In this document: one piece after another, positions 39,000 to 43,379 of the stretch | Layout of the letters: the number at the start of each line of letters is the position of its first letter | Numbering within the stretch: position 1 is the stretch's first letter | Origin: a bacterium | GTDB taxonomy: Bacteria; Patescibacteriota; Minisyncoccia; 2-02-FULL-40-12; IGHO2-01-FULL-4-A | Assembly (NCBI GenBank): GCA_030698885.1 | Contig: JAUYLN010000006.1 | Span: 1 to 64,000 of the forward strand | Direction: 5' to 3' | DNA length: 64,000 nt | Translations under genes and position numbers: made by a program | Notes under the pieces: model-generated | What the model was told of the DNA's origin: nothing | What the model saw: the letters and a program-made list of their open reading frames with translations, nothing else | Database searches by the model: none

Positions 39000-39005
39000 G
39001 TTTTG

Positions 39006-39074
39006 TTGACATAAACTACCCTCTGCTAAACAGGTAGCCCTGCATGGCTGAACCGTTCTGGTGCGGTTTTTTTT
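39006..39074 (+). ncRNA. Possible very short RNA unit (promoter plus terminator)
   Basis: TTGACA with a 15-bp spacer to TGC-TAAACA, then about 40 bases containing AGCCCTGCATGGCT and a terminator AACCG / CGGTTTTTTTT at 39051-39074. No ORF fits. It may be a tiny sRNA or a decayed gene. Confidence 0.3.
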
Positions 39075-39085
39075 CTTTTCTCCTA

Positions 39086-39111
39086 TTCTAATGTTCTTAA
39101 GAACATTAGAA
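39086..39111. repeat. 26-bp perfect palindrome upstream of proS
   Basis: TTCTAATGTTCTT and AAGAACATTAGAA meet at CTTAAG. It follows the same scheme as the 46-bp palindrome at 46293. Confidence 0.7.
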
Positions 39112-39150
39112 CGATGGCAGTGAGCTATTTCATTAGTTTTAATGCTTTGG

Positions 39151-39156
39151 TATTAT
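39151..39156 (+). promoter_or_regulatory. Extended -10 (TGG-TATTAT) seven bases before proS
   Basis: The distance suggests transcription start at or beside the proS ATG. The -35 is weak. Confidence 0.4.
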
Positions 39157-39163
39157 TTAACTA

Positions 39164-40438
39164 ATGTATATATCTCAAATTTTTACTAAAACAACCAAAG
39201 AAAATCCGGCTGGCGAAGTGAGTGTTAATGCCCAACTGCTTGAACGGGGAGGTTTTGTTTACAAAAATTCAGCAGGAGTCTATACTTTTCTTCCTCTGGG
39301 CTGGAAAGTTGCTCAAAAGATCACCGCTATAATCAGGGAAGAGATGAATGCTATCGGTGGACAGGAAATGTTCATGCCCGCTCTGGTTGAGAAAAAATAT
39401 CTTGATGCGACAGGAAGGTGGGATGTCGGCGTCGGTTTTAAGATTCTGGATAAATTACCAGTTACGGATTCCGAGTTACAAGTTACTAATTTCGTCCTTG
39501 GCTGGACACACGAGGAAGTCATCACCGAAATGGCCTCAAAATTCATCAGCTCATATAAAGATTTGCCGTTTTCGGCCTATCAGATTCAGACTAAATTCCG
39601 AAATGAACCTCGCGCCAAATCCGGTCTTCTGCGTGGCAGGGAGTTTATGATGAAAGATTTGTACAGTTTTCATACAAGTGAAGAAGATATGCTGGAATAT
39701 TATGGCAAAGTAAAAGATGCATATGCGAAAATTTTTGAACGTTGTGGACTCAAGGCTTATTATACTGTAGCTGCTGGAGGAGATTTTACTGCCGAGAACA
39801 CGCATGAGTTTCAGGTGCTGTCTGAAGTGGGCGAGGATACAATCTTTTTATGCGAAAAGTGCGAATATGCTGAGAATTCAGAAATCTCAAAACTAAAAAC
39901 TGGAGAGAAGTGCCCCACCCGCCTGCCGGACGGGCAGGAATGCGGTGGTGATATAAAAGAAGAAAAATCTATTGAAGTTGGAAATATTTTTCCGCTCGGT
40001 ACAAAATATTCCGATGCCTTTAATTTTAAATTTACTGATGAAAAAGGCGGTAAACATTCGGTTGTGATGGGGTCATACGGCATCGGCATAGGCAGAGTCA
40101 TGGGCGCGACCGTAGAAGTCAGTCATGATGATAAGGGTATTATTTGGCCGGATAATATCACGCCGTTTAATGTTCACCTTGTTGATTTGACCAAAAATGG
40201 AGAAGGCAAGGATGTTTATGAGAAGCTTATTGCCAAAAATATAGAAGTTTTGTATGATGACCGGACTGATAAAACTGCCGGCGAGAAATTTGCTGATGCG
40301 GATTTGCTCGGGTGCCCTGTCAGGTTGGTTGTGAGCGAGAAAACCTTGAAAGAAAATAGCGTGGAGGTAAAAAGAAGAGCGGGCGATGAAATTAAACTGG
40401 TTTTGATTGAGGAGCTAGAGAGAGCACTAGTAAGATAG
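39164..40438 (+). CDS. proS: Prolyl-tRNA synthetase without editing domain
   Basis: A 424-residue class II enzyme, shorter than the ~570-residue bacterial form because the INS editing domain is missing. Motifs: SAGVYTFLPLGWKV, GWTHEEVITEMASKF, FRNEPRAKSGLLRGREFMMKD, SFHTSEEDM, and motif 3 YGIGIGRVMGATVE; an anticodon-binding domain ends the chain. A zinc-like region CEKCEYAENSE replaces part of the lost domain. Two in-frame repeats disturb the sequence: residues near 98-109 (LPVTDSELQVTN) and CPTRLPDGQEC near 250. A -10 sits seven bases before the ATG. Confidence 0.95.
   Translation: MYISQIFTKTTKENPAGEVSVNAQLLERGGFVYKNSAGVYTFLPLGWKVAQKITAIIREEMNAIGGQEMFMPALVEKKYLDATGRWDVGVGFKILDKLPVTDSELQVTNFVLGWTHEEVITEMASKFISSYKDLPFSAYQIQTKFRNEPRAKSGLLRGREFMMKDLYSFHTSEEDMLEYYGKVKDAYAKIFERCGLKAYYTVAAGGDFTAENTHEFQVLSEVGEDTIFLCEKCEYAENSEISKLKTGEKCPTRLPDGQECGGDIKEEKSIEVGNIFPLGTKYSDAFNFKFTDEKGGKHSVVMGSYGIGIGRVMGATVEVSHDDKGIIWPDNITPFNVHLVDLTKNGEGKDVYEKLIAKNIEVLYDDRTDKTAGEKFADADLLGCPVRLVVSEKTLKENSVEVKRRAGDEIKLVLIEELERALVR
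39455..39490. repeat. AGTTAC-type periodic repeat in frame inside proS
   Basis: TTACCAGTTACGGATTCCGA followed by GTTACAAGTTACTAAT encodes PVTDSELQVTN. It interrupts a segment between two conserved catalytic-core motifs. Confidence 0.7.
39914..39943. repeat. GC palindrome element in frame inside proS
   Basis: CGCCTGCCGGACGGGCAGG is an imperfect palindrome encoding TRLPDGQ within the cysteine-containing loop. Confidence 0.65.
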
Positions 40439-40440
40439 TT

Positions 40441-40562
40441 TTTAAATCCAAATTTTAAGTTTTAAATTTTAAGTAAAGCCCGAATGACCCGAATGTTTAA
40501 AAATTGGAATTTTGTATATTGAATTAACCTGCCGGCAGGCAGGAATTTGTAATTTATAATTT
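40441..40562. repeat. AT-rich repeat array with GC palindrome after proS
   Basis: TTTTAAGTTTTAAATTTTAAG units (as at 8326) and later AATTTATAATTTAAAATTT, with the palindrome CCTGCCGGCAGG at about 40530. Confidence 0.6.
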
Positions 40563-40576
40563 AAAATTTAGTACTC

Positions 40577-40604
40577 TTGACATTATGTATGGGTTTGCTA
40601 TAAT
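40577..40604 (+). promoter_or_regulatory. Near-perfect sigma-70 promoter of the structured RNA
   Basis: TTGACA, 16-bp spacer, TGC-TATAAT. Both hexamers match consensus and the extended -10 is present, making it the best promoter in the window. Confidence 0.85.
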
Positions 40605-40610
40605 ATAAGT

Positions 40611-41208
40611 ACAGTAAATCACCCACCTGAATTGCTTGAAAGTTGTTATTTTTTGGTAATTCAGGCGGGTCCCTGGTTTCGGCCATTTTGGCCAGCATAT
40701 TAAAAGAGGGGTGTTTCTCTTGGACTGCTTTTGAGAGTCCTTGAACCCGGAAACACAGATGCTGGTTGAGTGGGCCCGCCATTCTTTCGCCTTTCTGGAG
40801 ACAGGACCGGATTGGCAAGCCCTTGTGGCTGAAAAACTTTTTGAATCTTCTTTCATTGGATGGGAGGGTGGAGATCCGGCAAGGATCTATGAAGGAGGCC
40901 GATAGGGTTTAGTAAGAGCTAGGGTTATTATTCAAGGCGTCTAGAATGCAGGTCATGCAGAGAGGGTATTCCCTGCGCCGGGATCTCCCTGATCTATCCT
41001 CTCTGAACTTTTAAAAATTTCAGCCTTGCGAAATTTGTAACTAATATCCGGTGTTGGAGATAAATTTCGCAAGGCCGGCCGCTTCATTTCCCAAGTGAAC
41101 CGAAAGGTAAGGGAGAGGCGCATGTCGGCCTTGCACTAAACTCGCTCTAGGCGAGGACGTACAGCATGGGGACTGGCTGCCAGGGGTGACAGCCAGTCCC
41201 CGATTTTT
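40611..41208 (+). ncRNA. Candidate large structured non-coding RNA (~600 nt)
   Basis: Runs from the consensus promoter to a strong terminator (41168-41208). Visible stems: ACCCACCTGAATT / AATTCAGGCGGGT (40620-40670), GGCGGGTCC / GGGCCCGCC closing a multibranch with CCAGCAT / ATGCTGG and GGACT / AGTCC, CAGAGAGG / CCTCTCTG, GGAGATCCGGC / GCCGGGATCTCC, and CCTTGCGAAATTT / AAATTTCGCAAGG (41023-41073). I find no RNase P core (GAAAGTCC, ACAGAAA), tmRNA T-arm or SRP GGAAG tip, so it is none of these in standard form. It may be one RNA or two processed RNAs. No ORF fits the strand. Confidence 0.6.
41168..41208 (+). terminator. Strong terminator of the structured RNA
   Basis: GGGGACTGGCTG / CAGCCAGTCCCC perfect 12-bp stem with a 10-base loop and a T-run. 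Confidence 0.9.
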
Positions 41209-41301
41209 CCAGGAATTAGATTTTTGAAATGCTTGCCTCCGCCAGCTGGCGAAGGCGAGCTAAAGCCAAAAGGCAATTCAAAAATTCACTTCCTGGTTTT
41301 A
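41209..41301. repeat. 93-bp imperfect hairpin with internal GC palindrome
   Basis: CCAGGAA / TTCCTGG outer arms and TTTTTGAA / TTCAAAAA inner arms enclose GCTTGCCTCCGCCAGCTGGC followed by GAAGGCGAGC, itself a palindromic repeat unit. Confidence 0.55.
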
Positions 41302-41322
41302 CCAAGTTCTTTTGAAAAGTTA

Positions 41323-41385
41323 GGGGCCGACCAAAGTCTGTTTTTCTGCTACCAGCGGAGAAGGAGGTGATCCAGGTCGGCCCCT
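41323..41385 (+). ncRNA. Hairpin with the complement of the 16S rRNA 3' end in its loop
   Basis: AGGGGCCGACC and GGTCGGCCCCT form a perfect 11-bp stem. The 41-base loop ends with AAGGAGGTGATCCAG, which pairs with CTGGATCACCTCCTT at the 3' terminus of bacterial 16S rRNA (15 nt). No start codon follows at a usable distance. Function unknown. Confidence 0.5.
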
Positions 41386-41431
41386 GCTACACTTTTTTAA
41401 AGTTGAGCTTACCAAATAGTCCCGGAATATA

Positions 41432-41608
41432 GAGGCGGTTTCAAAACTCCATTTCTACTGCAATTCCTGATTTTTGACTGCGACTGCGTCAGATTTCATA
41501 AAATATTCTCACTGTAGCTATTGCTACACTTCCGAGTATTTTATTCATCTTCCTTGTCTCGTTCAAAAATCAGGAATTTCGTTACGAAAGAAGCTTTGAA
41601 ACCGCCTC
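41432..41608. mobile_element. 177-bp MITE-like element, copy 1
   Basis: Terminal inverted repeats GAGGCGGTTTCAAA and TTTGAAACCGCCTC. Inner arms ATTCCTGATTTTTGA / TCAAAAATCAGGAAT and apex GTAGCTATTGCTAC. The ends closely match those of the element at 59917 (shared TTTCAAAACTCCAT and CGAAAGAAG). No coding capacity. Confidence 0.7.
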
Positions 41609-41675
41609 ACAATAGTTCTTTTCATATCCGGGGCTGCTTGGTGATCTTACCCTCGCCACTCCTAGACCACACATT

Positions 41676-41712
41676 CCCGGGACAGAGCTGCCACTCGTCC
41701 CGGGGTTTTTTA
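41676..41712 (+). terminator. Terminator after the element
   Basis: CCCGGGAC / GTCCCGGG stem, then GTTTTTTATT; it implies that a transcript reads through the region. Confidence 0.8.
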
Positions 41713-41717
41713 TTATT

Positions 41718-41762
41718 TGTCCACGCGCAGTTGAGCGAAGAGAAACGAGCATGGAAACAAAT
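41718..41762. repeat. Dispersed TCCACGCGCAGTTGAGC-type repeat
   Basis: Copy of the repeat at 34657 and 53240; the three copies share GCGxAG, GAGC and CGAGCAT-type blocks. Confidence 0.5.
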
Positions 41763-41987
41763 AATAACCCCTCTTTAATTTTGCCCTTGGATGATTATGC
41801 TTCATATATTTTAAGTATTATACATTTAAATATTTTGCGACACAGGGGCCGAATAGGCCCGAGTCCCGCTATGGCGGGCGAGTGTGGTGCCGCTATCTTT
41901 TTTGCAAAATTAAGGATGGGGTAAGGAGTGATATTATGTATTCTACAAGGGGCATGAAGTTTATTATCTGTCACAATTGAGCAAGGT

Positions 41988-42015
41988 TTGAAGTTGCATC
42001 CATGTTTGCTATAAT
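41988..42015 (+). promoter_or_regulatory. Promoter of the coiled-coil transglycosylase gene, near leaderless
   Basis: TTGAAG, 16-bp spacer, TGC-TATAAT, only eight bases before the ATG at 42024. Confidence 0.65.
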
Positions 42016-42023
42016 TCTAAGTA

Positions 42024-43379
42024 ATGTTATTTAACCGAAAAAATCCTATTATCGGCTTGATTTTTATGTTTTTAACCGCAATGACGGTTTTTTTATTCAT
42101 AAGTAATTCAAATAATGTTAATGCTGCTGTACAAGATGAAATAGCCGAAAGAGAGAGACAGATACAAGATATACAAAAATTAATAGATGAATATCAGTCT
42201 CAGCTTGAAGAAAATTCACAGCAAAAGCGAACTCTTGAAACTGAAATATCTAAATTAAATACTCAGATAAATAAAATACAGCTGGAAATAAAAAGCCTTA
42301 ATGTCTCAATAGAACGAACCGGTTTTGAGATAGAAGATACTAAGCAGAAAATTGAGGACTCTAAAAGCAAAATTGATATACATAAAAGTGCTCTCGCTGG
42401 CTACATTAAAGAAATAAATGCTGCCGATCAAGAAACGCTTACCCAGGTGCTCTTAAAGAATAAAAGCATATCGGATTTTTTTGATAATTTAAATGACATA
42501 GAAACAACCCAGGATAAGCTTCGCTTAGTTATAGAAGATATTAAATTATTAAAATCAGACCTTGAACAAAAAGAAACTAACCTGGTGGATAAAAAAGATG
42601 AGCTTGAGCAACTAAGATATCTTCAACAAATAGAGAAGAATAGCGTGGCGTCTGTTAAGAGCGAGAGAGACTCTATTCTTAATGCGACAAAGGGTCAGGA
42701 GAAGCAATTTCAGGATTTAATAGCCAAATCCCAAAGAGATATAAACGCTATACGCAGTCAAATATCATTTCTTCTTCAACAAGGCATAACCGCCGAAGAC
42801 GCAGTAAAATACGCAGAGCTTGCTGCTTTGAGGGCCGGCATCAGGCCCGCGTTTCTGCTGGCCATTCTTGAAATTGAATCCGGCCTCGGCCGAAATGTGG
42901 GTTCCGGCAATTGGCGTGACGACATGTATGAATGCTATATCAGACTTGGTACGATATATTATCCGGCGAGAAAGGCCTATTATCTTAAGAGAGCCGAAAC
43001 GGAGAAGAGTGCATTCTTTAAAATTACAAATAAACTCGGCCTAGACCCGGATTCTGTAAAAGTTTCAAAAGAACCGAGTTATGGATGCGGTGGAGCTATG
43101 GGGCCTGCGCAGTTTATTCCTTCTACTTGGTTGGCCTATGAAGAAAGGGTAGTAGCATTAACCGGTCATAATCCGCCCAATCCCTGGAGTATTGAAGATG
43201 CTTTTATGGCCTCAGCCATAAAGCTCGCCGCTGGCGGAGCTGATTCAAAAACTAGAGCGGGTGAGATAGGGGCGGCGAAGGCGTATATTGGCGGCAGTAG
43301 AACTTGCAGTTCCAGTATCTGCAACTCTTATTCAAGCGCAGTATTGAGGAAGGCCGAAGAAATAGAGAGGAATCTCTAA
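42024..43379 (+). CDS. Exported coiled-coil protein with C-terminal lytic transglycosylase-like domain
   Basis: A 451-residue exported protein. A signal peptide/anchor (IIGLIFMFLTAMTVFLFI) precedes about 230 residues of coiled coil (EIAERERQIQDIQKLIDEYQ onwards), as in PcsB/CwlO/EnvC-type hydrolases regulated by FtsEX. The C-terminal domain carries an SLT-like fold: LLAILEIESGLGRNVGSG with the catalytic Glu, GGAMGPAQFIPSTWLAYEER, and AFMASAIKLAAGGAD. It would cleave glycan strands during growth or division. Combining a CwlO-like coiled coil with a transglycosylase domain rather than NlpC/P60 or LytM is uncommon. The -10 lies eight bases upstream. Confidence 0.85.
   Translation: MLFNRKNPIIGLIFMFLTAMTVFLFISNSNNVNAAVQDEIAERERQIQDIQKLIDEYQSQLEENSQQKRTLETEISKLNTQINKIQLEIKSLNVSIERTGFEIEDTKQKIEDSKSKIDIHKSALAGYIKEINAADQETLTQVLLKNKSISDFFDNLNDIETTQDKLRLVIEDIKLLKSDLEQKETNLVDKKDELEQLRYLQQIEKNSVASVKSERDSILNATKGQEKQFQDLIAKSQRDINAIRSQISFLLQQGITAEDAVKYAELAALRAGIRPAFLLAILEIESGLGRNVGSGNWRDDMYECYIRLGTIYYPARKAYYLKRAETEKSAFFKITNKLGLDPDSVKVSKEPSYGCGGAMGPAQFIPSTWLAYEERVVALTGHNPPNPWSIEDAFMASAIKLAAGGADSKTRAGEIGAAKAYIGGSRTCSSSICNSYSSAVLRKAEEIERNL

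Follow-up and report, generated by a model that had tools for sequence, protein, structure and literature searches.

Positions 40,611 to 41,716 of the window (the whole stretch of DNA analysed, 64,000 nucleotides), between proS (the proline-tRNA ligase gene) and the next gene, are supported as an array of structured RNA units under a promoter of its own, for which no expression data are available. We give a probability of about 0.5 to the reading that this locus is an untranslated RNA operon with its own promoter, built of tandem strand-exchange units with boxA-like motifs, whose transcript is processed, and that it represents an order-specific family; transcription, the switch, Nus binding, and processing are all inferred. 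This reading is based on the promoters, the conserved position, the covariation of both competing helices, a strand-specific motif, and the presence of a NusB gene. By every test applied the array is a new RNA family, and its three-strand tandem layout is unusual.

Extent and architecture of the array

A sigma-70 promoter on the forward strand (TTGACA-16 nt-TGcTATAAT, 40577-40604) matches the consensus at 12 of 12 positions, carries a TG extension, and ranks best within the range scanned (39,000-43,000), in agreement with the initial annotation, which had placed a strong promoter ahead of the region. The same annotation described a candidate large structured RNA of about 600 nt, ending in a terminator. 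The predicted structure and a terminator-like hairpin were both confirmed: 40615-41210 (596 nt) has a predicted folding energy of -241.6 kcal/mol compared to -196.5 +/- 8.5 for shuffles (z = -5.3), and a hairpin with arms at 41168-41182 and 41187-41201 is followed by the T run CGATTTTT. The length was not, since the structured stretch runs on past 41,208 to a second terminator at ~41,711. The folding z-score of 41209-41725 is -12.3, which is partly due to the palindrome of an inserted 177-bp repeat, and that of the array as a whole is -5.7. The array is modular and extends to ~41,716, with 40,611-41,208 as its first half, and a single 600-nt RNA is the wrong unit. The parts are listed below, where a and a' are the arms of a hairpin, b' is a later strand that can pair with a', G000 is the genome of the window, and G001 onward are its relatives.

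40611..41716 (+), whole array and probable transcript, without expression data; its 5' end is inferred from the promoter and its 3' end from the second terminator-like hairpin
40621..40669 (+), unit 1, first hairpin a:a'; from the fold, kept in G003 by alignment
40771..40780 (+), unit 1, strand b' TGGGCCCGCC, which can re-pair the 3' arm; duplex of -22.8 kcal/mol, equalled by 17/200 shuffles
40781-40787 (+), ATTCTTT after unit 1 b'; motif position
41023..41075 (+), unit C hairpin a:a'; 14 bp, arms 41023-41036/41062-41075, 100% complementary
41124..41134 (+), unit C, strand b' GTCGGCCTTGC, a complement of the unit C 3' arm; 1/200 shuffles as good
41168..41208 (+), first terminator-like hairpin with its T run
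41209..41296 (+), long hairpin with 24-nt arms
41306..41312 (+), GTTCTTT boxA-like motif, copy 1; from the motif listing
41323..41384 (+), domain D, a stem GGGGCCGACC/GGTCGGCCCC enclosing the 16S-complementary stretch; from the fold, with a counterpart in G003
41361..41374 (+), AAGGAGGTGATCCA, a 14-nt perfect complement of the 3' end of the genome's own 16S rRNA; 300 shuffles
41411..41425 (+), B hairpin 5' arm; assigned by sequence comparison to other B hairpins
41432..41608 (no strand assigned), 177-bp palindromic repeat in the B hairpin loop; also found elsewhere in G000 and in relatives
41615..41621 (+), GTTCTTT boxA-like motif, copy 2, in the B loop; from the motif listing
41628..41642 (+), B hairpin 3' arm; assigned by sequence comparison to other B hairpins
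41675..41711 (+), second terminator-like hairpin with T run; from fold and sequence

The helix of unit C had been reported as 13 bp at 41023-41073; it is real, but measures 14 bp and ends two positions later. Its two states have nearly the same predicted energy (-41.2 and -42.6 kcal/mol). The b' strand of unit 1 is weak when taken alone, because 17 of 200 shuffles are as good. The earlier statement that the region holds no ORF is nearly right, except that a 54-codon TTG frame is present at 40741-40905 (+); this frame was rejected as a gene because it matches no Pfam or PHROG family and no counterpart was seen in the other arrays. The gene 3' of the array, which has a separate promoter-like site upstream (41988-42015), encodes an SLT transglycosylase; G003 has a gene of the same kind, and neither is mreB. 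The 177-bp element is an imperfect, MITE-like palindrome with two further copies in G000, and it also occurs in G002, G004, G005, G006, and G010.

Comparison to known RNAs

At the gathering scores of Rfam 15, the window contains three tRNAs, none of them inside the array, and no other family. With relaxed thresholds, the window array gave only weak, chance-like matches (best score 26.9 bits where 70 are needed), and the matches to asX1, RalA, and mir-3747 obtained in the arrays at such thresholds were dismissed as chance-like. The covariance-model search that had been proposed for this region therefore found nothing in the array that reaches an Rfam threshold, and the only threshold match in any other array is a tRNA in G004. 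RNase P RNA (C14:68329-68770, E 7e-29, 91 bits, slightly below the cut-off) and tmRNA (C27:58592-58946, E 6e-54, 132 bits) were located elsewhere in G000. Small SRP RNA (RF00169) has no match in the array or anywhere in G000, and none in G003 or G004, which completes the three genomes of the Yanofskybacteria family that were tested; in G010 the RF00169 match is weak.

These results bear on both possibilities raised by the initial annotation, a new RNA class and a highly diverged housekeeping RNA (RNase P, tmRNA, SRP, or, as we added, 6S). The strong promoter, the length, the structure, and the lack of an SRP RNA elsewhere in G000 would fit the latter. However, two of the candidate RNAs are encoded elsewhere in this genome, the array has no SRP match and no meaningful 6S match, the array of G001 has shrunk to a single hairpin, and many relatives have no array at this place, so that a housekeeping role is already largely refuted and remains only as a very improbable reading. 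The annotation had also noted that the conserved cores of RNase P RNA, tmRNA, and SRP RNA are absent. A new class is favored by the absence of Rfam matches, by homologues after proS, and by covarying base pairs. Lineage-specific structured RNAs as such are already known; no earlier description of this family was found in the open literature, with most subscription papers outside the scope of the search.

Distribution among relatives

The initial annotation had proposed to collect homologues 3' of proS in related genomes, and reading the DNA at this place did identify them. Equivalent arrays are present in 13 related genomes of the Ca. Yanofskybacteria order (ten after proS, two after recA, and one elsewhere), and the 14 array genomes, including that of the window, span three families. 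All 14 arrays are headed by a near-consensus promoter in an equivalent position and all fold better than shuffles (z from -2.6 to -6.9). The arrays after proS, in the family of the window (f1) and in the f4 genomes G010, G013, and G020, range in size from ~0.1 to 1.6 kb. At the lower end, the array of G001 is reduced to the promoter, one (B) hairpin, and a T run (~75 nt). In G006, a contig end interrupts proS, and the array starts another contig that opens with an apparent proS end. Arrays of family f3 sit after recA in G027 and G037 (the RecA C-terminus is confirmed for G027, and the G037 neighbour was assigned by resemblance) and at a third place in G032. proS and mreB are adjacent in many Paceibacteria, usually less than 100 nt apart, and the array is absent from this place in many relatives. 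The genes 3' of the arrays vary; usually they are mreB or another cell-wall gene, with SLT transglycosylase genes and, after recA, others. A DNA search with a 616-nt region against 40 relatives gave only chance-level matches outside the region itself, the same region has no phage match, and the motif pattern of the arrays is absent from the viral contigs searched.

Several other features were observed at or near these loci. Micro-ORFs with Shine-Dalgarno sites are present in the g3 arrays (L068, reverse strand, ~435-680; L071; L072). Their part (M)WKRWAGRESL* differs only synonymously among G002, G005, and G007, and G004 has a possible relative, MPRCFLWRAGDWTL*. A different promoter-hairpin RNA is common to G035 and G044 (L248 and L252), 5' of a small gene and a gene that by eye is ComM-like.

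Conserved hairpins and strand exchange

The arrays share two types of hairpins with covarying pairs, the signal for which the initial annotation had proposed to test. B hairpins consist of a 16-17 bp helix with GUUCUUU in the loop; in eight sequences, 9 of 16 pairs covary, and 96.8% of alignment cells are paired compared to 29-50% when the arms are slid. With the corresponding model (R1), a single strong copy per genome was detected in seven f1 relatives and in G010 and G020, in each case inside the array. Eight of these nine genomes supplied training sequences, and G006 is new. R1 misses the B hairpin of the window because the 177-bp repeat splits its arms. Weak R1 matches in G036, G045, and G104 and at G007:C6 and G003:C7 resemble terminators or unrelated hairpins and were rejected. 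For the C hairpins, ten sequences show covariation at 9 of 13 pairs. The second model (R2) has its best match in the unit C hairpin (55.6 bits), which is one of its own training sequences, and it revealed the further arrays of G013, G027, G032, and G037. When 384 genomes from 295 genera of the class were scanned, R2 matches with E <= 1e-4 were confined to this order; few candidates per genome were scored, so matches may have been missed. R2 matches in G031, G035, and G044 also resemble terminators or unrelated hairpins, and that of G031 is without a b' strand (p = 0.74).

Many of the hairpins are followed, mostly 40-120 nt downstream, by a complement of a', strand b', which hence repeats a. 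In a first set of 21 hairpins, 11 have a downstream b' duplex at p <= 0.045 (equalled by no more than 9 of 200 shuffles), and among hairpins found later, 7 of 11 b' matches are at p <= 0.033. Control hairpins in the window reached p <= 0.02 in 0 of 16 cases and p <= 0.05 in 1 of 16. The tests are not all independent, since G010 and G013 belong to one genus. In the same 12 units, covarying pairs make up 9 of 12 in a:a' and 7 of 8 in a':b', with far lower values for slid controls. Because pairing was the criterion by which hairpins and b' strands entered the covariation tables, the counts lean that way; the 7 of 8 in particular is inflated by the selection of b' strands for complementarity. A search of the whole window for three-strand arrangements with exact 7-mers found 3, compared to 0-5 in shuffles, so the three-strand claim rests on the hairpin-anchored tests. 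Since both helices share strand a' and both covary, many units appear to have two mutually exclusive folds. The predicted energies of the two states, calculated for 17 units, are less than 5 kcal/mol apart in about half and up to ~10 kcal/mol apart otherwise, in either direction. Most b' strands are without a terminator T run, and the B-type units, with GUUCUUU in the hairpin, are mostly without a significant b'.

The payloads between the shared parts differ among genomes, and none is common enough to be tested as a separate RNA. Some are tRNA-like. When strand a is blocked, the payload of G013 is predicted to adopt a tRNA-like cloverleaf with a':b' as its closing stem; ARAGORN makes no tRNA call for it. 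Two other tRNA-like genes were seen. The start of the G006 array (L251 ~80-230) holds a tRNA-Ile(GAU)-like gene with a long extra D-loop stretch, not called by ARAGORN, and the G004 array (L070 450-522) holds a tRNA-Cys-like gene with a 6-nt anticodon loop and an ARAGORN anticodon of 'gc', either an assembly error or an odd tRNA.

A boxA-like motif on the transcribed strand

GUUCUUU is the commonest 7-mer of the arrays, where it occurs in 12 of 14. In 12.8 kb of arrays there are 16 copies on the forward strand and none on the reverse, compared to a mean of 1.5 and a maximum of 5 in shuffles, and in G027, G032, and G037 it directly follows b'. The boxA consensus in gamma-proteobacteria is GYTCTTTAANA (PMC5725501). 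At the level of sequence, GUUCUUU equals the boxA core, and the criterion for a boxA operon, GYUCUUU on the transcribed strand, is met. A NusB-family gene (PF01029) was found in all nine genomes searched, where rRNA methyltransferases with the same domain are not excluded. Against the boxA reading, no GYUCUUU was found in the rrn leaders of G000, G001, G003, G004, and G010, and the boxA of these genomes may therefore have another sequence; AGAACTTTCAAAA, present in the rrn leaders of G000 and G003, could be the boxA of the lineage. The rrn leaders (L128, L129, and L131, 5' of 16S) have in common a conserved block like CGTGATTTTTTATCGTT..CCAG and, 3' of the promoter, a long hairpin. The 16S genes of G001, G003, and G010 (L113, L114, and L116) are overlong or match in split form, which points to large insertions, probably introns.

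Alternative explanations

The complement to 16S rRNA in domain D raises the possibility of a ribosome-directed regulatory RNA, in which a super-Shine-Dalgarno sequence binds free 30S subunits and holds ribosomes or tunes translation. Its length of 14 nt exceeds anything in 300 shuffles (mean 8.1, longest 12), 13 of the 14 nt are kept in G003 while much of the nearby sequence has changed, and GGAGGTG occurs five times on the forward strand of the arrays and never on the reverse. However, a complement of this length is limited to the window and G003, other arrays have only 6-10 nt, the GGAGGTG count by itself does not exceed the shuffle maximum, and in several arrays the site is followed instead by ordinary micro-ORFs. 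Even the G003 array pairs only 10 nt with its own 16S, because the 3' end of that 16S is changed, and we consider this explanation unlikely. The G003 16S 3' end (L129 ~2560-2585) reads GGATCACCTTCTTT, a change within the anti-Shine-Dalgarno region that may be a sequencing error.

Helices that exclude each other by sharing a strand are also what attenuators are built from, and the arrays meet this expectation (with b' chosen by complementarity in the counts) and usually lie upstream of mreB or another cell-wall gene. A cis-acting leader, that is, a riboswitch or attenuator controlling the downstream gene through competing helices, is nevertheless doubtful. Two terminator-like hairpins and the promoter-like site at 41988-42015 intervene before the next gene, the downstream genes are inconstant (mreB, SLT transglycosylase, and others after recA), and an attenuator needs no tandem units. 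Further, a second helix that acts as a terminator or masks the start site of a conserved gene was not found, most b' strands lacking a T run. We give equally little weight to the arrays being mobile palindromes gathered at one intergenic spot at the DNA level, without RNA function. A 177-bp palindromic repeat did insert in the window array, and the arrays vary fast and have different positions in f3. Mobile palindromes would not be expected to show b' competition, and they are at odds with the 16:0 strand bias of GUUCUUU, with a near-consensus promoter at the head of each array, and with R1 hairpins being limited to one copy per genome at a common locus instead of being dispersed.

Comparison to known systems also separates the proposed RNA operon from its closest analogues. 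With rRNA-tRNA operon precursors (boxA, NusB-S10) it shares a strong promoter, a long untranslated transcript, a boxA-core motif, processing-type helices, and, in some arrays, tRNA genes or tRNA-like domains. In contrast to these, the arrays contain no rRNA, a third strand competes in many units, payloads are variable, and the lineage's own rrn leaders lack GYUCUUU. GOLLD, ROOL, and OLE are likewise long, highly structured, lineage-limited, and of unknown function, whereas the arrays have no such Rfam match at gathering or relaxed thresholds and consist of repeated small units over 0.1 to 1.6 kb without a fixed core. Attenuators and riboswitch expression platforms have mutually exclusive helices with one common strand; the arrays differ in being tandem, mostly without a terminator on the second helix, and without a constant downstream gene. 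Integron gene cassettes and other variable cassette arrays resemble them, by analogy only, in having a constant frame with changing content, although the frame of the arrays appears to act as RNA.

Proposed mechanism and implications

In the untranslated RNA operon that we favor, the a:a' hairpin of each full unit would form as soon as it is transcribed, followed by the payload domain and then by b', complementary to the same a'. Strand b' would displace a by branch migration, leaving the payload closed by an a':b' stem; this refolding is inferred from the pairing evidence. GUUCUUU may act as boxA, with NusB-S10 keeping RNA polymerase moving along a locus whose transcript would be long, rich in hairpins, and free of ribosomes. 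Cutting of the long helices, most likely by RNase III, would then free payload RNAs as in rRNA-tRNA operons. Both polymerase protection and helix cutting are established for rRNA operons; for the arrays they are inferred. The payloads are likeliest to be a set of small RNAs specific to the lineage, regulatory or tRNA-like, a function that is likewise inferred. More tentatively, the locus may be an RNA cassette array with fast turnover between related CPR bacteria, in which a constant RNA frame (promoter, boxA-like site, and bistable hairpins) carries exchangeable structured payloads, some tRNA-like, each folded by strand exchange during transcription; we regard this as possible, though not probable.

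The non-coding RNAs of CPR bacteria, which have tiny genomes, seem to be little studied, and an RNA locus of ~1 kb with its own strong promoter that is kept in reduced genomes likely earns its place. Should the three-strand units function as predicted, they would be a natural case of tandem co-transcriptional strand displacement and would extend the use of boxA in CPR bacteria beyond rRNA, and they may be a new way to package several structured RNAs in one transcript.
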